IMG/VR virus record: IMGVR_UViG_3300045996_001029
Span: 1 to 48,404 of that record
Length of the DNA stretch: 48,404 bases
Origin: a virus
Direction: 5' to 3' (one strand)
The notes beneath the pieces were generated by a model. It was given only the letters and a program-made list of their open reading frames with translations. It was not told where the DNA came from and did not search any database. Shown in pieces: positions 4,397 to 46,749 of the stretch. Each line of letters begins with the position of its first letter. Positions within the stretch are counted from its first letter, which is position 1. A program made the translations under genes and the position numbers.

Positions 4397-5422
4397 TCAG
4401 TTGGAGAGAGCCGGGGCCAGCAGGCGATTGCGGAAACGCGTCGCCAGCCGGTCTGTCCCTGCCTTCTCGTTGGCGATGGCGCGCAGGTGGCGCTCAGGCC
4501 CGGAGAGCTTGGTCCCGGTTCGGTCCCATTGCTCCCACTCCGTCACGGCAGACATGAAGCCGAATCCGGTGTCCCGGAAAGCGTCGTCGATGTTTGCCCT
4601 GACCGCCATCACACCGTTGTGCGCCTGGACTCGGTTGGTCCGGGTCCGGGGCTGGATGTCGTCGTCTTCGGAAGTGGGCCACTCCGCCTCCAGCAGCTGG
4701 GCTGCGCGGAGGTAGGTGACCTCTGTCTCGAGGAGCTGTTCCAACTCCCGGTCGAACCCCTCGGACCACGTGGTGGCGAGGTTGAGGGCGCGCTGGGCCT
4801 CGGACACCTGGATCTCCATGGATCGGGTGTGCCGAATCCGAATCGAGGCGGTGAGCTGGGGAAGGCTCCAATGGAGCGTGTTGGCGCACATCTTCTGGAA
4901 GGCCATGGTCGAGGCGAACAGCGAGGTACCGCCGTCATGCCCCGTCCCGACCGCCATCACCGGCGTCACGTCCTGGCCCACGGAGTAGGCGACCTGGGAG
5001 GCGGTGAGCTTTATCAGCACCATCACCTTCTGGCCCCCGTTGACCGTCACCGCAGCCACGTGATTGGTGCTGGCTAGGTCAACGAGCAGGTCGGCCCACT
5101 CGCCCATCGCTCGATTCTGGAAGGGCTGGTAGGCGCCGGAAACCGTCGAGCCGGTGACCGGCTGATCGGTGTCGGTGCGAGTGACCCAAAAGGCGTTGGG
5201 CTGGGCGGCGTATGCCTTGCCCCGAGGGTCAAGGTAAAACGCCTCTCGCAGCTCCACGTCCCAAAGGGCCCCGGCATCGTTCAGCGCGGCGACTGCCGAG
5301 CGTCCGGTGCCGATCTCTCTTCCAGCCATTTCCTCTGCTGCTTCCTTGGCGTACTTGTCGCCAAGCATCAGCCCTCTCATGAGGGTGCGGCTCTGGGGGA
5401 TTGCTGAGGAACTTGTCCTCAT
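4397..5422 (-). CDS. DUF932 / phage-plasmid-like protein
   Basis: 341 aa. Family features seen: GREIGTGRSAVAALNDAGAL, AYQPFQNRAMGEWADLLVD (the conserved '..Y.P..N.......' segment), a central GHDGGTSLFASTMAFQKMCA (the 'N.HDGS....F....R..C.NT' block), and IRHTRSMEIQVSEAQRAL ('.RHT......'). This is the DUF932/TIGR03299 family, common in phages and plasmids and of unknown biochemical role. The gene heads its unit, with CAAGGAGGTAGCAAGC before the ATG and two hairpins farther upstream. Confidence 0.85.
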   Translation of the reverse strand: MRTSSSAIPQSRTLMRGLMLGDKYAKEAAEEMAGREIGTGRSAVAALNDAGALWDVELREAFYLDPRGKAYAAQPNAFWVTRTDTDQPVTGSTVSGAYQPFQNRAMGEWADLLVDLASTNHVAAVTVNGGQKVMVLIKLTASQVAYSVGQDVTPVMAVGTGHDGGTSLFASTMAFQKMCANTLHWSLPQLTASIRIRHTRSMEIQVSEAQRALNLATTWSEGFDRELEQLLETEVTYLRAAQLLEAEWPTSEDDDIQPRTRTNRVQAHNGVMAVRANIDDAFRDTGFGFMSAVTEWEQWDRTGTKLSGPERHLRAIANEKAGTDRLATRFRNRLLAPALSN

Positions 5423-5556: not shown

Positions 5557-5931
5557 TCAACCTTCCTCGTCACCTCCGTTGGCGATCCGCTCGCTGACGT
5601 CGACGAGTAGGGCAGGGGCACGCTCGGGATCGACAGGGGAAACTTCCTCTGCGATGACCTCGATGCGGCCCTTGCGCTCGCCGCCCTCGTCCCAGAATCG
5701 GCGCTGGACGGCGCCGATAGCCAGGATCGGCTCTCCCTTCTCGGGAAGCCAGGGTTCCTCGTCACCGTCCATCACCCACAGATAGACCGGGATCACATCG
5801 ACCCGGCGACGCGGCTCCTCAACTCTCGAGGTGATCGTGTATTCGACCACCGCCGAGCCAGAAGGAAACTGACGCACTTGCGGATCGGCGGCGACCCGCC
5901 CGACCAGAACCACCAGGTTCATGTCGTGCAT
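5557..5931 (-). CDS. Single-stranded DNA-binding protein-like, OB fold (second SSB)
   Basis: 124 aa. MNLVVLVGRVAADPQVRQFP, then GSAVVEYTITS and a later PILAIGAVQRRF strand, reproduce the opening strands of bacterial SSB ('N...L.G.L..DP..R....G..V..F.....'). The acidic tail (DEEG) is compatible with partner binding but is not a canonical DDIPF-type tip. The genome has a second, more typical SSB at 46288-46749. Here the start ATG (5931) shares one base with the previous stop; an internal ATG three codons in is an alternative start. Confidence 0.72.
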   Translation of the reverse strand: MHDMNLVVLVGRVAADPQVRQFPSGSAVVEYTITSRVEEPRRRVDVIPVYLWVMDGDEEPWLPEKGEPILAIGAVQRRFWDEGGERKGRIEVIAEEVSPVDPERAPALLVDVSERIANGGDEEG

Positions 5932-29843: not shown

Positions 29844-31115
29844 ATGCCCGTCCAAAACCCCTTCACGATGCTGGCCGACCAGCGAATCGACCGCCCGGTC
29901 CAGATGTACCGGGGAGAGGTCACCGCGGTCAACACCACCGACAAGTTGGTGAACGTCGACGTCACCGGCACCATCCTCGACGAGATTCCCTACACCGGGG
30001 CGACCGCTCCGGTGGTCGGGGGGCTGGTGTGGCTGCTCCGGTACGGGGCGACGATGCTCGCCTTCTCCGAGACTCCTGGGGGTGGAGGTGGGGAGCCGGG
30101 TCCGATGGGTCCCGAGGGTCCCGAGGGTCCTCCTGGCCCTGAAGGGCCGCAGGGTGATCCCGGGCCACAGGGTCCGACCGGAGCGACCGGCGCCCAGGGT
30201 CCGATCGGCCTCACGGGGCCACCGGGAGCGGACGGGGCCGAAGGCCCTCCTGGCCCGGAAGGGCAGGTAGGCCCGGAGGGTCCGGCTGGTCCTGAAGGCC
30301 CACCGGGGCCGATGGGCGAAGTGCCACCCGACACCTTCCTTGAGTTGGCGGGCGGGACGATGCTCGGCGACATCATCCTGGCCGGTGATCCGGACCAGGA
30401 CCTCGAGCCGGCCACCAAGCAGTACGTGGACGGGCTGATAACGATGGCCGGGGTCCCCCACGTCATCGACGAGACAGAGCCGCCCGCCCCGGTCGATGGG
30501 TTGTTGTGGACTCATCCGACTGAGGCGGCGACGGTCCCGGTGATGGTCCCTATCGGGTCGATGATGATGTGGCCGACCGCTACGGCCCCCTCTAGCTGGC
30601 TGATCTGTGATGGGAGTTCCTTCGACGGCTTGACCTATCCCGATCTGGCGACCCTTCTCGGCGGGACCACACTCCCTGATATGCGGGGGCGCTTCCCGAT
30701 TGGGGTCGGCACCCTCGGATCGGATACCTACGCCCTGGGCGACACCGGGGGATCGGCGCGGGTCGCCCTAGCCATCACGAACATGCCGACCCACTCCCAT
30801 ACGGTCAACCCGCCTGTGACGTCCACAGGCAACCAGGACGCTTCCCACACCCACAACATCGCTCACACCCACAACCTGAGCGGTTCCTTCGTCAACGACC
30901 TAACCAGCTCGGCTGGCTCCAACTCTCGGTTCAGAGAGGTCAGCGCCACTACTACGAGCGCTGCCTCCAACGCTGCGTCGGGCAACCAGCTTGCCAACCA
31001 TCAGCACAACGTGGACATACCGGCCTTCGATTCGGGGGATGCGGGTTCAGGGACCGCTCATGAGAATCGGCCTCCGTTCCTGGCGATCAACTTCATCATC
31101 AAGGCAGGCCCGTAA
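29844..31115 (+). CDS. Tail fiber: collagen-like stalk and tail-collar domain
   Basis: 423 aa. Residues 1-75 are an attachment domain ([20 protein letters not shown]). About residues 80-160 are Gly-X-Y repeats rich in Pro and Glu ([20 protein letters not shown]). Then [18 protein letters not shown] (a common fiber motif) and a tail-collar domain ([43 protein letters not shown]). The end has several HxH motifs ([12 protein letters not shown]). It is probably an adsorption fiber. Confidence 0.87.
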
Positions 31116-32287: not shown

Positions 32288-32515
32288 ATGAGTGAGACAC
32301 TCAAAGAGGCGTTGTGGTGGACCTTGGTGTTCGTGGTAATAGCTGTCGTGATCGCCGCAGGCGTTCGGATCGTCAACTGGATCACCGATGGGACCGGGAG
32401 CAACTCTCAGATTTGGAAAGCCGCCCTGGTCTTGATCGGGGCCTCGGCGGGAGGCGGCAAGGCGGTGACGGCGATCAGACATAGACAAACCAACACTAAG
32501 GGAGATGAGGAATGA
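32288..32515 (+). CDS. Holin-like membrane protein
   Basis: 75 aa. The first membrane helix is about residues 9-29 (LWWTLVFVVIAVVIAAGVRI). A weaker second one is at about 42-57 (IWKAALVLIGASAGGG), followed by a polar tail (RHRQTNTKGDEE). Size, two helices and charged end fit a small holin, which would open the membrane for the endolysin. A ribosome binding site (AAGGGTGAACC) precedes the ATG. Confidence 0.68.
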   Translation: MSETLKEALWWTLVFVVIAVVIAAGVRIVNWITDGTGSNSQIWKAALVLIGASAGGGKAVTAIRHRQTNTKGDEE

Positions 32516-32547
32516 CGACCCGTTCTAGGCTGACGGCCAAGCCATGA
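32512..32547 (+). CDS. Eleven-codon minigene upstream of the surface protein
   Basis: The ATG at 32512 overlaps the holin stop (ATGA) and has GGGAGATGAGGA just before it. The frame reads MTTRSRLTAKP and its stop overlaps the start of the next gene (ATGA at 32544). It forms a perfect coupling relay between the two genes. It might be a leader peptide or simply a translational bridge. Confidence 0.4.
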   Translation: MTTRSRLTAKP

Positions 32548-33785
32548 GGAAGATCATCGGAGTAGTCGCCCTCGTCGTGGCGATATTTGCCCTGGCCGTC
32601 CCGCTCGGGGCGCAGGTGAGCACCACACTCCCCCCGGTCGACTCGACCAGCCGACCACCGGAGAACTTCACGATCTGCCACTTCACCGGCCTGGCCGGGA
32701 CCGAGCGCTTTGTCGAGCTCAACTTGCCGTTCCTGGCGATCTTCGGGGTGGCCGGCCACTTCTTCGAGAACGGGACGCCGCAGGCAGGCCACGAGGAGGA
32801 CATCTTTGGACCGTGTCCCACTACCACGACAACCACCACCACCTCTACCACGACAACCACCACCCTGGCGACCACCACCACCGAAGGGCCCACCACGACG
32901 GGGCCGACATCGACGAGCACCCCTCCAGTGGTCACTCCGTTTTGCGTGGACGTCAACACCGCGGCCCAAGCCGAGCTGGAACAGCTGGGCGGCATCAATC
33001 CTGTCCTGGCACTTCTGATCCTCGCCAACCGGCCCTATGAGTCGGTCGAGGACCTGGCCGACGTGCTCCCGCCCGGGGTGCTGGCGCTGATCCTCGAGAC
33101 CAACGCCCAGACCGGGGCCTTCGTCGCCAACTCGTGTCTGACCCCGTTCGGGGTGACGACGACGACCCTGCCCGCGACGACGACCCTGCCGACGACGACG
33201 ACCACACCGGGCACGCTCACCGTCCCGCCCGAGCCACCGTCCACCCTCACCACCGGGGAGGTCACGGCGGTGTGTGTCTCGGATATCCCCTTCCTGTCCT
33301 ATCAGGTCGACGACTTCCCGGGAGCGACTGTCATCAACGAAATCCGATTCCACAATCCGACCGGCGGGCCGGATGTCGTTTACGTTGACCAGCCGCTCTC
33401 GGGACAGGTCCTATGGCCGGGAGCTTCGGACATTCCGCCCTTCGACTGGCCGGGGTGGGAGCTGGTGAATGGGGTGTGGGTCGAGGCCGACGACGGGTTC
33501 TTGTGGGCGCGGGAGACGATCGAGGTCACCTTCACCATCAACCCCTCCGCCACCATCACGGTCAGCTATCCCCCGGCAAGCGCGATCTGCGCCAACCCGG
33601 AGAACCTGAACCCGAACCTTCCCCCTGCGCCACGCACCCCCAGCCCCGAGGACTCGCTGCCCTTCACCGGCTTCGATCCCGACTTGTGGTGGATCGGCTT
33701 GATCTTGGCCGCTCTTGGCGGCCTATTCCTATTGAGCGCGAGAGGAGGTGACGAAGATGACGCAAGAGCAGCCAGCTCCCCCTGA
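32544..33785 (+). CDS. Secreted, sortase-anchored surface protein (LPFTG) with HhH domain
   Basis: 413 aa. A signal peptide spans about residues 1-23 (MRKIIGVVALVVAIFALAVP, then LGAQ). Residues about 41-91 form a CHxTG-type secreted domain (FTICHFTGLAGTERFVELNL, GHFFENGTPQAGHEEDI). A Thr-rich linker follows (92-115). Residues about 135-187 form a ComEA-like helix-hairpin-helix (DVNTAAQAELEQLGGINPVL, ANRPYESVEDLADVL). A second Thr linker (204-226), a beta domain (240-350) and a C-terminal sorting signal LPFTG (372-376) with a hydrophobic span and charged end complete it. The host sortase would link it to peptidoglycan. Carriage by a phage in the lysis region is unusual. Confidence 0.85.
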   Translation: MRKIIGVVALVVAIFALAVPLGAQVSTTLPPVDSTSRPPENFTICHFTGLAGTERFVELNLPFLAIFGVAGHFFENGTPQAGHEEDIFGPCPTTTTTTTTSTTTTTTLATTTTEGPTTTGPTSTSTPPVVTPFCVDVNTAAQAELEQLGGINPVLALLILANRPYESVEDLADVLPPGVLALILETNAQTGAFVANSCLTPFGVTTTTLPATTTLPTTTTTPGTLTVPPEPPSTLTTGEVTAVCVSDIPFLSYQVDDFPGATVINEIRFHNPTGGPDVVYVDQPLSGQVLWPGASDIPPFDWPGWELVNGVWVEADDGFLWARETIEVTFTINPSATITVSYPPASAICANPENLNPNLPPAPRTPSPEDSLPFTGFDPDLWWIGLILAALGGLFLLSARGGDEDDARAASSP

Positions 33786-33918: not shown

Positions 33919-34090
33919 GCACCCGGTAGGGTGTCGAATCCTTCGGGGACGGTTGGTCCGATTCCACAGGTTGTCGTCCCCGGAGTCGGTGGGCGCTCGC
34001 TCCCGTCCAGGGATACGGCGAGGGCGAGCGCCACCGCAATCGCAATCAGCAAACCCGCCCACCTCCTCACGCCCGCTAGGTTGGTCGGTC

Positions 34091-34180
34091 ATGGATCCAA
34101 TTCTTCGCCTTGTCTTGCTGATAGCGCTGATCGTCTGGACCGTCCTCAACATCATCTTGATCGTCCAGATCGACTTCTGA
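34091..34180 (+). CDS. Tiny single-helix membrane protein 1 (29 aa)
   Basis: MDPILRLVLLIALIVWTVLN, then IILIVQIDF: almost the entire product is one membrane helix. Its stop overlaps the start of the next tiny gene (TGATG). Such miniproteins occur near holin and endolysin genes and could modulate lysis timing. The ribosome binding site is weak. Confidence 0.55.
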   Translation: MDPILRLVLLIALIVWTVLNIILIVQIDF

Positions 34181-34278: not shown

Positions 34279-34989
34279 GTGGCCTCTACCCAGCAACGAC
34301 GTGACTGGTGGAAGGGGTATCGGTGCGACCCGGGCGATATGACGAGGGTGGCGCTCCCTTGCCCGAACAACCAGATCGTCAAGGTCTTGGTGGCCGACCC
34401 CGCCATCGGCATCTTCACCGCCATCTCTCAGATCATGGGCAGCGAGCCCTATCTGTTCCGGGAGAGCAGCGGCGGGACCTACAACTGCCGGAACATCGGT
34501 GACTCGGGCCTCCCCAGCCTTCACTCCTATGGGATCGCCCTCGACCTCAACCCGTCGAAGAACCCCCACCGCTACCCCCTCAAAACCGACATGCCCCCGA
34601 CGTTCATCAAGCGGATGGAGGGGATCAAGGCCAACGGCAAGAAGGCGTTGCAATGGGGTGGCCGGTGGTCGAAGCCCGACGCGATGCACTACGAGGTGGA
34701 CGTCGCCCCGGCAGACTGCAAGAACATCACCTGGGATCAAGGAGGCGGCTCAATGGCCACCTGGAAGAGCGAGGACGGATACACCTACACCGACGTGGAC
34801 AGCTGGGGCCAGTTCACAGATGCGATCAAGTGGAACATCAACAACCAGCTGCTGATGGGTCGGCGGGACAAGAACACGATGAAGGCGGTGTTCGATCCCA
34901 ACGTGGCGCTGCAACGGGACGAGGCGGCGTCGGTGTTCTTCCGGCTCGCCAAGGACTCCCCGACCTTCAAGCGAGAGATCGAGGACTGA
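34279..34989 (+). CDS. Endolysin, M15-type peptidase
   Basis: 236 aa from GTG, with AGGAGGGT upstream. SLHSYGIALDLN (H82, D89) and DAMHYEV (H137) are the zinc ligands of the M15/VanY-type L-Ala-D-Glu or D-Ala-D-Ala peptidases. The C-terminal 85 residues (YTYTDVDSWGQFTDAIKWNI, ALQRDEAASVFFRLAKDSP) look like a wall-binding or peptidoglycan-associated tail. It degrades the host wall at lysis. Its stop directly abuts the stop of the convergent minus-strand gene. Confidence 0.87.
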   Translation: MASTQQRRDWWKGYRCDPGDMTRVALPCPNNQIVKVLVADPAIGIFTAISQIMGSEPYLFRESSGGTYNCRNIGDSGLPSLHSYGIALDLNPSKNPHRYPLKTDMPPTFIKRMEGIKANGKKALQWGGRWSKPDAMHYEVDVAPADCKNITWDQGGGSMATWKSEDGYTYTDVDSWGQFTDAIKWNINNQLLMGRRDKNTMKAVFDPNVALQRDEAASVFFRLAKDSPTFKREIED

Positions 34990-36544: not shown

Positions 36545-37276
36545 TCACAGATTAGCAGCGGACCGTCTCAGCAACACCTCATGCCCTCCCCGGCGGCGGT
36601 TGGGCTGGACTAGAGAGGGCCACCGCGTCATCAAGGATTGGACCTCGGCAATCGCCAAAGTTTCCCGGTCGATCAAGGTGTCCTGGAGGCCACCGGGAGT
36701 CCTCCCCACGTCGGAGGCGTGCATCGAGAAAAAGTCGAAGCGGAGCACCCCGCCATCTGACTCGTAGTGGAGCAGGGTCCGCTCGTAGTCCTCTTTGGCC
36801 TCGAGAGTGACCGGCAGGTCGGGCCGGTTCAGCACCCCGTAGTGGGCGCCGTAGGCGTAGTAGAGGCCGAGCTTGGTCCGGGGGGACATGTAGAAGGGAT
36901 TGGGCGTCGGGGCCACCGACCACAGCGACACCCGCTCTTTTTGGGCGACCTCGAAGAACGAAATCCAATAGGAGGTGACGTCACGGACTGGATGGGTCGT
37001 GCTCCCCGAAAGGGCCACCCAGCCCGTAACGTCGTCATCACACCACACAATCTCGGCTCGCTCGGGAGTCATCGAGGAAGCGAAATTGCGATTGGCGTGA
37101 AGTGTGGCCTCCCCCGGTTCCACCCTCATGCCCCGAGGGGCGGTGGCACGGTAATCGCTCTCTTGGCCTGGGGTGACCCAGATCGTGACTATTTCGGGGT
37201 CCACCCCGGCATCGACCAGCGCATCGGGGGTGGTCATGGTTCGGGCCCGGTTGTGCGAGGGGATGTAGACCCTCAA
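36545..37276 (-). CDS. TET-associated-type glycosyltransferase (GT-A fold)
   Basis: 243 aa from a TTG (37276) overlapping the dioxygenase stop (TTGA). RVYIPSHNRARTM is the opening strand and loop of GT-A enzymes, and IVWCDDDVTGW (D80-D82) is the metal-binding DxD-type motif. KEDYERTLLHYESDGGVLRF (about 161-180) looks like the acceptor/catalytic acid region. The sequence fits the TAGT family found beside phage TET enzymes, which glycosylate oxidised bases in DNA. The pairing with the next gene strongly supports that role. Confidence 0.78.
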   Translation of the reverse strand: MRVYIPSHNRARTMTTPDALVDAGVDPEIVTIWVTPGQESDYRATAPRGMRVEPGEATLHANRNFASSMTPERAEIVWCDDDVTGWVALSGSTTHPVRDVTSYWISFFEVAQKERVSLWSVAPTPNPFYMSPRTKLGLYYAYGAHYGVLNRPDLPVTLEAKEDYERTLLHYESDGGVLRFDFFSMHASDVGRTPGGLQDTLIDRETLAIAEVQSLMTRWPSLVQPNRRRGGHEVLLRRSAANL

Positions 37277-38115
37277 AACACCGGGTCCATCGGGGAGTCC
37301 CGCAGCATGTGATCCTCCCGCTCGGTGCGCTTCTCCGTCCCTCGCTTCTGTTCCACGGCCCAGGTGTGGCAGTCCTTCATCCCCTTCAGCGAGTAGTAGA
37401 CCACTGAGATGCGATAGCCGTCCTCGGTCACCTTCGTCATGGGCGTGACGCCGTGAACGATGCGCCACCCTGGGAAGTAGACCACCCACCCGTCCCGGCA
37501 GGTGAACGAGCAGTCGTACTCGGGGAGATGCAGCTCACCACCACGCACTCCCCGACGCACAACCGGCATAGCCGACCAAGAGTGAAAGTTGGCCCCGTCC
37601 CGGTGATAGGGCAGCTGAGAGGAGAGGTTGATGACGCCGCTGGTCCAGATCGTCTCCTCGCCCAAGCGCCACTCCGGTAGCACATCAGCCACCTCTTTCC
37701 GGTCGGCGGCCGCAATGTCGGGAAGGTGGGTTTGGACCCAGGCGGTGAGGTCGTTGGCGGTGTCCTCTAGGACAGCCTCGATGTCGGGGCGGGTGTAGTA
37801 GAGGGCGGAGGGGCGACAACTCTCCCGCTTCAGCACCGCCTTGCGGGGGGCCATCCCGAAGGTCGAGGACACGTTCCGCAGGCCCTGGCCGGAGCGGAGG
37901 GTGGAGGACCATGGCGTATCCATCACGGCCCGGCGGAAGGTGGCGACGTCACCGGGGAGTGGGGCATAGGCGAGCACCGGCTCCCCGGTATCAACGTCGC
38001 TCCAAATGCCCTCCTGCTGGATCGGTAGGGCATAGGGCTGGTCGGTCACCATCGACCCCACCTTCTCATTGGCCTGCTCGGGGCTGATGACCCGTTGGAT
38101 CCGAAAGTGGTTCAC
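37273..38115 (-). CDS. TET/JBP-like 2-oxoglutarate/Fe(II) DNA dioxygenase
   Basis: 280 aa from a GTG overlapping the ParB-like stop (GTGA). The double-stranded beta-helix core shows LPYHRDGANFHSW (H171, D173: the HxD iron motif), GGELHLPEYD, FPGWRIVHGVTP (H221, distal iron ligand) and YRISVVYYS (R235, binding 2-oxoglutarate). The wording of these motifs is that of phage TET/JBP enzymes rather than AlkB or prolyl hydroxylases. The reaction is hydroxylation of the 5-methyl group of 5-methylcytosine or thymine in DNA. No methyltransferase was recognised in this closed genome, so the substrate is uncertain. Confidence 0.8.
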   Translation of the reverse strand: MNHFRIQRVISPEQANEKVGSMVTDQPYALPIQQEGIWSDVDTGEPVLAYAPLPGDVATFRRAVMDTPWSSTLRSGQGLRNVSSTFGMAPRKAVLKRESCRPSALYYTRPDIEAVLEDTANDLTAWVQTHLPDIAAADRKEVADVLPEWRLGEETIWTSGVINLSSQLPYHRDGANFHSWSAMPVVRRGVRGGELHLPEYDCSFTCRDGWVVYFPGWRIVHGVTPMTKVTEDGYRISVVYYSLKGMKDCHTWAVEQKRGTEKRTEREDHMLRDSPMDPVF

Positions 38116-38756
38116 TCTTTGGGCTCGGGTGGGGGCTGGTTGGGGAACTTGTCGGCCACCAGCCGTAGGACGGCCTCGGCGTTGGTGTTGACCTGATAGC
38201 GGAATCGAAGCTCGTTGAGCCGGTCCACCATCCACAGGTAAGTCTCGCCCTCGTAGTCGAGGAGGATGGTGCGGATGGTCTTGGCGAGATACCCCGCCGC
38301 CCAGGAATCGAGGTTGTCCTCCTCGTTGTCGACCATGTTGCGGGTGATTTCCTCGGAGGTCTCCTGGGCCTCGGCCAACAGATCGTCGAGGTCGATCGAG
38401 TCATAACCGGTGCCGACCAGGTCGTTGAGACTCTCGAGCAGAGCAACCAGCTCGGCGTCCCGATAGCCGCCGGTGTCCGAGGAGCGGTTGTCGACGAGGA
38501 GAATCTTCAGCGCCTGCTCGTCGTCCACATCGAGACGGATCACGTCCGCCTCCTCCCAGCCCAGCTGTTCCATCCCCTCGTGGCGCCCGTTCCCGGCGAG
38601 TACGTGGGAGGTGGAGCGCTGGACGATCAGGGGGGAGAACTGGCCGTGGGTGCGGAGCGATTCCTTGATGATGTCGAGGTTGTGGGTCCGGGCGTTGCGG
38701 GGGTGGCGGGTGAGGGACGAGAGCGGGACACGCTCGACGGTGAGAACGTCGGTCAT
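38112..38756 (-). CDS. ParB/Srx-like domain protein of the modification cassette
   Basis: 214 aa from ATG 38756; a GTG at 38777 is possible. The N-terminal ParB/sulfiredoxin fold shows RVPLSSLTRHPRNARTHNLD, HGQFSPLIVQRSTSHVLAGN and GRHEGMEQLGW, that is, the 'GNGRHEA'-type phosphate or nucleotide loop. DNRSSDTGGYRD follows. Such proteins are recurrent partners of phage TET and glycosyltransferase genes and may nick, bind or mark DNA. It overlaps the dioxygenase gene, so all three genes form one operon. Confidence 0.8.
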   Translation of the reverse strand: MTDVLTVERVPLSSLTRHPRNARTHNLDIIKESLRTHGQFSPLIVQRSTSHVLAGNGRHEGMEQLGWEEADVIRLDVDDEQALKILLVDNRSSDTGGYRDAELVALLESLNDLVGTGYDSIDLDDLLAEAQETSEEITRNMVDNEEDNLDSWAAGYLAKTIRTILLDYEGETYLWMVDRLNELRFRYQVNTNAEAVLRLVADKFPNQPPPEPKE

Positions 38757-40831: not shown

Positions 40832-41082
40832 GCTGTCCCTCCCATCGCAGTCGGGATTTTCTCCCGCACGTACTCGGGCCACAGCACCACCGGGCAACCG
40901 CATCTGGCGAGGCTGGTGGTGCATCGGTCCAGCTCGTCGAGTCCCTCGATGACCCGGCCTTCGTCCTTCATGTGATAGGCGTTCAGCAGGTGCTCCTCCG
41001 CTGCGCTCATGTAGCGCCGGTGCCGCTTCCGCTGGGAATGGAACCAGAGCCAGAACGTCATATCGACCTCGTTGATGCTCAC
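40828..41082 (-). CDS. Hypothetical protein (84 aa)
   Basis: MSINEVDMTFWLWFHSQRKR is followed by a helical middle and LDRCTTSLARCGCPVVLWPE with three cysteines. It overlaps both neighbours by four bases. Function unknown. Confidence 0.63.
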   Translation of the reverse strand: MSINEVDMTFWLWFHSQRKRHRRYMSAAEEHLLNAYHMKDEGRVIEGLDELDRCTTSLARCGCPVVLWPEYVREKIPTAMGGTA

Positions 41083-41564
41083 ATCGGCTCCTTCTCGAAG
41101 TCAGGCTGGACCCACCACCCGAAGTGATCGGCGGTGTTCACCAGGATCTGCACCAGCTGGGCGCTGATGTCGAAGCGGTCGGTGTTGACCAACATCGAGC
41201 GGGCCAGGTTCCCGTCGTCGTGACGTTCGGTTGCCGCCCTCCAGTCCGCCAGCATCTCGATCAGGTCCACCAACGTCATGCCGAGAATCCCATCGGTGAA
41301 GTGCTCGGGGTGGTGCCGGTTCACCGCATAGTGGTGAGCTAGCCCCTCGCCCATCCCCTCCAAGAACCCCTTGTACTCGTCGCTCCCATAGGTGGAGTGG
41401 CGCAGCTTGGGGGTGTACTCGTCGAAGATCGCCTTCTCGGGCGGCTGGGTCTTGGAGGCGTCGTGGATTCGGCTCCGGTCGTCCAGCTCGTCGATCACCG
41501 GCATCAACAGCTCCCGTACCCGGACGGCGTGCTCGATGGTGTCGTTTCGACTGTCGTAGGTCAT
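41079..41564 (-). CDS. DUF5662-like protein
   Basis: 161 aa. IHDASKTQPPEKAIFDEYTP, YGSDEYKGFLEGM, HHYAVNRHHPEHFTDGI and GMTLVDLIEMLADWRAA follow the family pattern 'HD.SK...E...Y...H...N.HHPEH......M...D..EM..DW'. The repeated His/Asp residues suggest an HD-like metal site, but the activity is not established. Known members are in phages and plasmids. Confidence 0.78.
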   Translation of the reverse strand: MTYDSRNDTIEHAVRVRELLMPVIDELDDRSRIHDASKTQPPEKAIFDEYTPKLRHSTYGSDEYKGFLEGMGEGLAHHYAVNRHHPEHFTDGILGMTLVDLIEMLADWRAATERHDDGNLARSMLVNTDRFDISAQLVQILVNTADHFGWWVQPDFEKEPM

Positions 41565-45899: not shown

Positions 45900-46288
45900 C
45901 CCTCCTCGACGGGGGCGAGAACCGCCCTCAGCCGGTAGATCACGGCCATGAGCCGCTCCCTGTCCTCAGGGGAGAGGACCTGGAGCGAGAAGAACACCGG
46001 GCACCCGTTCACGTACCTGGGACCGGCATTCGCCACCCACTCGTACATCATCCCGAAAGTTTCCATGTGCTCGGGGTCGGGTAGGAGAAAGTCGACCAAA
46101 GATTTCCGGTCGTCGTCCTCCATGAAGGCGAGGGGCATGAAGGTGAGCGCCAGGTCGCCGCCCGCCCGGAACACGTCGAAGTCGGTGTAGACCGCTCCGC
46201 CCATCAACCCCACCGCCAGCTCCCTGATCTCGTCCTCGGTTTTCGCCTCGTAGGTGTCGGTCCAGCGGGGAACTTTCTTGGCCCCCAT
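45875..46288 (-). CDS. Hypothetical protein (137 aa), coupled to ssb
   Basis: MGAKKVPRWTDTYEAKTEDE, GGAVYTDFDVFRAGGDLALT and LLPDPEHMETFGMMYEWVAN. An acidic alpha/beta protein with no known motif. The start overlaps the ssb stop (TGATG). A replication accessory role is possible because of this coupling. Confidence 0.66.
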   Translation of the reverse strand: MGAKKVPRWTDTYEAKTEDEIRELAVGLMGGAVYTDFDVFRAGGDLALTFMPLAFMEDDDRKSLVDFLLPDPEHMETFGMMYEWVANAGPRYVNGCPVFFSLQVLSPEDRERLMAVIYRLRAVLAPVEEGEREKHGL

Positions 46289-46749
46289 CAGAACGGAGCT
46301 TCATCCGGGCCGTAAGTTTCCTTGGCGGCAGCGGACGACCAGTCGTCGGCCATCTGATCTGCCTTGCGAGCGGTCGGCCCGGATCGAGCATCCTCTTTCG
46401 ACACCCGATGCACCGAGGCCGTCGCCCAGCGCAGGTCAGGGCCCACCGAGTCAGCGATGATCTTGACGGTGCGGCGGTTCTCCCCATCGTCTGTCTTCCA
46501 CTCGTTCGGCGTGACCCGTCCGGCGACGATGACTCGATCCCCCTTCTTGAGCGATTCCGCGACGTTCTCGGACAGCGAGCCGAACACCGTCACGTTCCAC
46601 CAAAAGGTGTCTCCGTCCACCCACTTGTCTCCTTCCTTTTGGCGGTCGGTGTGAGCCACCGAGAGCCTGGTGAAAGGGTTACCGGCTGGTGAGTAGCGCA
46701 GCTCGGGATCGTCCCCGAGGTTGCCCGTCACCACTATCTCTGGGTTCAT
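46288..46749 (-). CDS. ssb: Single-stranded DNA-binding protein
   Basis: 153 aa. The OB-fold opening (EIVVTGNLGDDPELRYSPAG, NPFTRLSVAHTDRQK), the WWNVTVFGSLSENVAESLKK-GDRVIVAGRV block and TVKIIADSVGPDLRWA are classical bacterial and phage SSB. The last residues (DEAPF) form the acidic tip that recruits partner proteins. CAAGGAGGTTCAG precedes the ATG. It protects ssDNA at phage forks and feeds the Rad52-like protein. Confidence 0.92.
   Translation of the reverse strand: MNPEIVVTGNLGDDPELRYSPAGNPFTRLSVAHTDRQKEGDKWVDGDTFWWNVTVFGSLSENVAESLKKGDRVIVAGRVTPNEWKTDDGENRRTVKIIADSVGPDLRWATASVHRVSKEDARSGPTARKADQMADDWSSAAAKETYGPDEAPF

Follow-up and report, generated by a model that had tools for sequence, protein, structure and literature searches.

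The window analysed here is an uncultivated virus record of 48,404 bases (IMGVR_UViG_3300045996_001029) with a G+C content of 64.7%, in which a codon-trained gene call places 79 genes. It represents an uncultivated tailed phage, and sequence comparison places its nearest relatives among phages that infect Actinomycetota. Between 12.3 and 32.1 kb, the plus strand encodes the terminase, portal, head protease, major head protein, major tail protein, and tape measure. After the tape measure, this run closes with tail proteins and two tail-collar proteins. A tail-collar protein encoded at 29844-31115 (+) carries a collagen-like Gly-x-y repeat (Pfam Collagen, 45.6 bits).

The gene described here follows the tail genes and has a 413-amino-acid translation, as read in the initial annotation. 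It scores as coding, and its codon use matches that of the phage in the phage-trained codon model. The same gene occurs on a second contig, which has 1 mismatch in 5,923 bases and encodes an identical protein, so an assembly artefact is an unlikely source. The features of the locus are listed in Table 1.

Table 1. Features of the candidate surface-protein gene and its neighbours (positions in the window; residues of the 413-amino-acid protein).
Feature	Position	Strand	Basis
Membrane protein, 75 aa, holin-like by position	32288..32515	+	hydrophobic span 8-26
Candidate surface-protein gene, 413 aa	32544..33785	+	open frame and coding score in phage-trained codon model
Predicted signal peptide, residues 1-24, MRKIIGVVALVVAIFALAVPLGAQ	32544..32615	+	hydropathy; cleavage site approximate
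Module 1, residues 36-92, TICHFTG...AGHEEDIFGPC, C45/C91	32649..32819	+	sequence, Cys positions
Thr-rich stalk 1, residues 93-131	32820..32936	+	25/39 Thr
Module 2, residues 134-198, ComEA/PsbU-type HhH, C134/C198	32943..33137	+	HHH_3, PsbU, and PDB matches
Thr-rich stalk 2, residues 206-238	33159..33257	+	16/33 Thr
Module 3, residues 239-352, C244/C349, net charge -13	33258..33599	+	sequence
LPFTG sorting-type motif, residues 372-376	33657..33671	+	sequence; homologous segment in L061
C-terminal hydrophobic span, residues 381-399	33684..33740	+	KD 2.11
Tail RGGDEDDARAASSP, net acidic	33741..33782	+	codons overlap ribosome-binding site and start of next gene
Shine-Dalgarno AGGAGGTGA of next gene, inside tail codons	33743..33751	+	sequence
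Pro/Glu-rich acidic gene, 53 aa	33757..33918	+	gene call; overlaps 3' end of candidate surface-protein gene
Possible small membrane protein MDPILRLVLL..., 29 aa	34091..34180	+	inferred from C-terminal part of ORF 33953-34180
Possible small membrane protein, 32 aa	34180..34278	+	gene call, hydrophobic span
Endolysin, M15 peptidase	34279..34989	+	Peptidase_M15_4 44.6 bits; PHROG endolysins

The initial annotation placed the gene between a holin-like gene and an endolysin gene. The setting is a lysis region, but the endolysin, which ends the late region, is not adjacent; it is separated from the candidate gene by the 53-amino-acid gene and by one or two tiny membrane ORFs. The hydrophobic span and position of the upstream product agree with a holin-like label, although this product has no family match above cut-off in the Pfam and PHROG profiles. 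The 53-amino-acid gene has a strong ribosome-binding site inside the C-terminal codons of the preceding gene, and its product, scanned from an earlier start, has no Pfam or PHROG family match. The candidate surface gene lies downstream of the tail genes and upstream of the endolysin, and it overlaps the next gene, which suggests late co-expression.

The protein is composed of three modules, two stalks, and the sequences that would direct it to the envelope. The predicted signal peptide follows MRK and contains a hydrophobic span at residues 4-22 with a mean KD of 2.82; its designation as a Sec signal is by hydropathy. The CHxTG-type segment named in the initial annotation is located at residues 45-91 (CHFTG...GHEEDIFGPC), and the two Thr-rich linkers correspond to the stalks. 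Module 1 has no Pfam or NCBIfam match, and a pattern scan found no shorter form of the CHxTG...HxxDI module. Module 3 likewise belongs to no known family in Pfam or NCBIfam, and is separated from the LPFTG motif by a Pro-rich piece. The whole protein contains six cysteines, exactly one pair per module, located at the module edges. This pattern fits exported domains closed by disulfides, and the three modules are probably each closed by one such bond. The mature part has a net charge of -30 and a pI of about 4. Modelled with AlphaFold2, modules 1-2 and module 3 gave a mean pLDDT of 40, too poor to interpret.

The C-terminal end carries an LPxTG motif followed by a hydrophobic span, the arrangement of sortase-anchored LPXTG proteins. 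LPFTG is the sole LPxTG in about 14,000 amino acids of called phage proteins, and only 0.75% of shuffled versions of the protein have an LPxTG within their last 60 residues. A textbook sorting signal ends in a basic tail (PMC5817068). The motif, span, and charged tail reported in the initial annotation are all present, but the tail is net acidic (-2) rather than basic, with R400 alone directly after the span, and the end has no match at E 10 to Pfam Gram_pos_anchor (PF00746) or the NCBIfam LPXTG models. The codons from R400 onward, AGAGGAGGTGACGAAGATGACG, supply the next gene with its Shine-Dalgarno and its start; this packing may explain the atypical tail, and perhaps with it the lack of a profile match. 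Like PF00746 wall proteins, the phage protein has a signal-like start, a stalk, an LPxTG motif, a hydrophobic span, and an Arg after the span; it differs in its net acidic tail, in the missing profile match, and in being phage-encoded. The anchor is atypical but probably real, and a membrane-anchored product is the alternative to sortase linkage.

A set of 2.9 million viral contigs was scanned for LPFTG with a hydrophobic run after it. The scan returned 69 stretches, of which, after a check of the reading frames, only the known gene and one other were convincing. The second protein is encoded at the end of viral contig IMGVR_UViG_3300009157_000043 (L061) by a gene that is cut by the contig end. 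Its last 53 amino acids are 45% identical to those of the window protein, and the LPFTG anchors are homologous. Chance origin of the LPFTG motif is ruled out by the shuffling and by this homologue. The L061 protein resembles the window protein in its Thr stalks, a Cys-pair module, a Pro-rich piece, and the LPFTG anchor, and its tail also overlaps the start of the next gene. The codons of this end, AAGGTGGAGGCCGAAGATG, carry a ribosome-binding site. In both proteins, the tail opens with one Arg directly behind the hydrophobic span and is otherwise mixed or acidic. The L061 protein differs in having no HhH in its available part, a different module, and a different phage lineage and gene neighbourhood.

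The L061 phage has an SU10-type capsid, and beyond the anchor protein none of its proteins convincingly matches the window. Relatives of this capsid occur mostly in phages of Mycobacterium, Propionibacterium, Bifidobacterium, and Eggerthella, and all those with a named bacterial host infect Actinomycetota. Judged from these capsid relatives and the shared segment, the anchor is common to two phage lineages that are unrelated to each other but both have actinobacterial kin, and the modules differ between them. For the window itself, actinobacterial phages and an Actinoalloteichus plasmid carry the closest relatives of the terminase and of a tail protein. The actinobacterial host proposed in the initial annotation agrees with these relatives and, at the level of phylum, with the anchor of L061.

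Full-length homologues of the protein were absent from 50,697 phage records and 72,556 plasmids, where the matches were short, weak, and nearly all to the HhH. Among viral contigs, none were found beyond the same phage, and none occurred in 12 phage records of varying relatedness. A close relative (about 84% DNA identity) stops before the lysis region. The single genome scanned, Zeimonas arvi, which is not an actinobacterium, yielded one HhH-only match.

The closest terminase found is 50% identical and is encoded by the Actinoalloteichus plasmid pGBA129-24a (NZ_CP016078.1, 59 kb). This plasmid is a phage-like element, carrying genes for terminase, portal, capsid, tail, endolysin, and holin. 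Its genes for packaging, portal, tail, RusA, and SSB are related to those of the window, yet no gene between those for tail and endolysin corresponds to the candidate surface gene. For this reason, the gene looks like an accessory addition.

Module 2 was described in the initial annotation as a ComEA-like helix-hairpin-helix. Residues 135-174 match Pfam HHH_3 at 28.5 bits against a cut-off of 27 (E 1.6e-6), and the isolated domain scores 32.9 bits. The match spans profile positions 6-49 of 65, so that only the first hairpin is recognisable; the second lacks GxG. The HhH is therefore present at the level of sequence, from which its fold is read, but as one hairpin. The first hairpin reads LGGINP, with GGINP in place of GIGP, the hairpin sequence of ComEA-type domains. 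The profile of PsbU, a photosystem subunit, follows closely at 23.8 bits, and the PDB sequence matches are 2duy (ComEA-related and the closest) and PsbU chains. The score against TIGR01259 comE is 15 to 19 bits, far from its cut-off of 152. Module 2 contains one Arg and no Lys, with a net charge of -7 and a pI of about 4, whereas a ComEA-like domain from Zeimonas has a charge of +4 when computed alike. The phage module thus shares with ComEA/ComE1 and PsbU the VxxNTA lead-in, the first hairpin, and (here by prediction) export, and differs in the loss of the second hairpin, in the change of the second Gly of GxG to Asn, in its acidic character, and in its framing by a Cys pair; the two GxG hairpins and basic surface of ComEA are not found in it.

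These properties bear on whether the protein would capture incoming or extracellular DNA at the wall. The HHH_3 score above cut-off, the ComEA-related 2duy as closest solved sequence, and the likeness of VDVNTA to the VNINTA segment of Pasteurella ComE1 (PMC2601033) would favour it. In ComE1, however, VNINTA and both hairpins are needed for binding of DNA and fibronectin, and single-hairpin fragments with VNINTA and the first hairpin do not bind DNA (PMC2601033). Lysines in the motifs were the residues mutated to probe ComEA-DNA binding (PMC9747964), and module 2 has none. With one degenerate and acidic hairpin and a near-equal score for PsbU, DNA capture by module 2 is unlikely, and the binding of incoming DNA suggested in the initial annotation is not borne out. 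As an account of the whole protein, DNA capture has a very low probability. Contact with proteins is possible for the module, since such HhH domains are able to bind proteins according to the ComE1 work (PMC2601033). A HhH match in an exported protein need not imply DNA binding.

Three further explanations concern the gene as a whole. It could belong to the lysis cassette as an envelope-tethered regulator or helper of holin and endolysin, for example by delaying or focusing lysis. Its neighbours point this way, with a small membrane protein before it, a small gene that it overlaps, and tiny membrane ORFs and the endolysin after it. Against this, the L061 protein sits among genes that do not resemble lysis genes, pGBA129-24a has an endolysin and a holin without such a gene, and a PHROG search gave no similarity to known lysis families, which leaves a lysis role quite unlikely. 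Cargo drawn from the surface-protein repertoire of the host, serving general ends such as adhesion or aggregation and not the exclusion of phages, is unlikely too. The modular make-up resembles host surface proteins, the gene is absent from the related plasmid-phage, and an adhesin-like LPXTG gene occurs in streptococcal prophages (PMC6546898); but the codon use fits the phage, and long-term benefit to a lysogen is doubtful because no integrase or repressor was found among the genes scanned, a set that excluded some small genes. Packing on the virion, also raised in the initial annotation, is the most improbable account. The gene follows the tail-collar genes, but the signal sequence and C-terminal hydrophobic anchor would direct the product to the envelope, and no virion family was matched in the PHROG search.

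The phage-carried LPXTG protein of phiD12-like Streptococcus agalactiae prophages is adhesin-like, with a proposed function (PMC6546898). Those prophages are temperate and belong to Bacillota, and the available part of that account makes no mention of HhH or Cys-pair modules. Phage-borne LPXTG proteins are already known and the architecture described here is new. Searches of the open-licence literature gave nothing relevant on LPXTG with actinobacteriophages, or on HhH with LPXTG and phage.

The reading preferred here is late display on the envelope. The late-expressed protein would pass out through the host's Sec pathway and be retained at the envelope by its LPFTG signal, where a host sortase would cleave it and link it to the wall, or it would stay membrane-anchored. 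The three acidic modules would be raised on possibly glycosylated stalks rich in Thr and Pro. All three, the HhH included, would most likely be protein-contact or masking surfaces, not DNA grips. On the altered cell surface, further phages would no longer adsorb, nor would the phage's own progeny on meeting cell fragments. Display of the protein on the envelope is likely. Receptor masking or superinfection exclusion is its likeliest purpose, though on its own a doubtful proposal, made because of the precedent of T5 Llp and the lack of a better-supported purpose. Taken as a whole, late display for this purpose has an even chance of being correct.

Phage T5 makes Llp, an envelope protein by which the receptor is blocked and adsorption to fragments of lysed cells is avoided (PMC9586334). 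The likeness lies in the proposed purpose, a phage-made envelope protein that masks a receptor (PMC9586334). T5 Llp is a small lipoprotein of a Gram-negative envelope, and no sequence relation is claimed. Points against the display reading are the sorting-signal profiles without a match, the net acidic tail, and the early production of T5 Llp, as opposed to the placement of the candidate surface gene with late genes.

A broader reading, offered tentatively, is that the two LPFTG proteins represent a hitherto unnoticed class of modular display proteins in actinobacterial phages that would repaint the wall of the infected cell late in infection. Members would share the anchor and Thr stalks and carry exchangeable modules stapled by Cys pairs, here including a HhH that does not bind DNA. 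If true, the class would be a Gram-positive equivalent of lipoproteins that, like T5 Llp, mask receptors, and LPFTG with a Thr stalk would be a readable marker for finding more such proteins.

Several other genes were observed in the window. A three-gene row at 36545-38756 (-) is a likely DNA-hypermodification cassette. It contains a TAGT / HMC-glucosyltransferase-like gene (36545-37276, -), a Tet_JBP-like oxygenase gene (37273-38115, -; Pfam 25 bits, below cut-off), and a ParB_N gene (38112-38756, -). The middle gene also matches PHROG 6059 (queuine tRNA-ribosyltransferase) at E 9.5e-83, which conflicts with the Tet_JBP label. The genome carries two SSB-like genes, at 5557-5931 and 46288-46749 (-). 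Genes at 41079-41564 (-) and 4397-5368 (-) match DUF5662 (122.8 bits) and DUF932 (86.3 bits), respectively.
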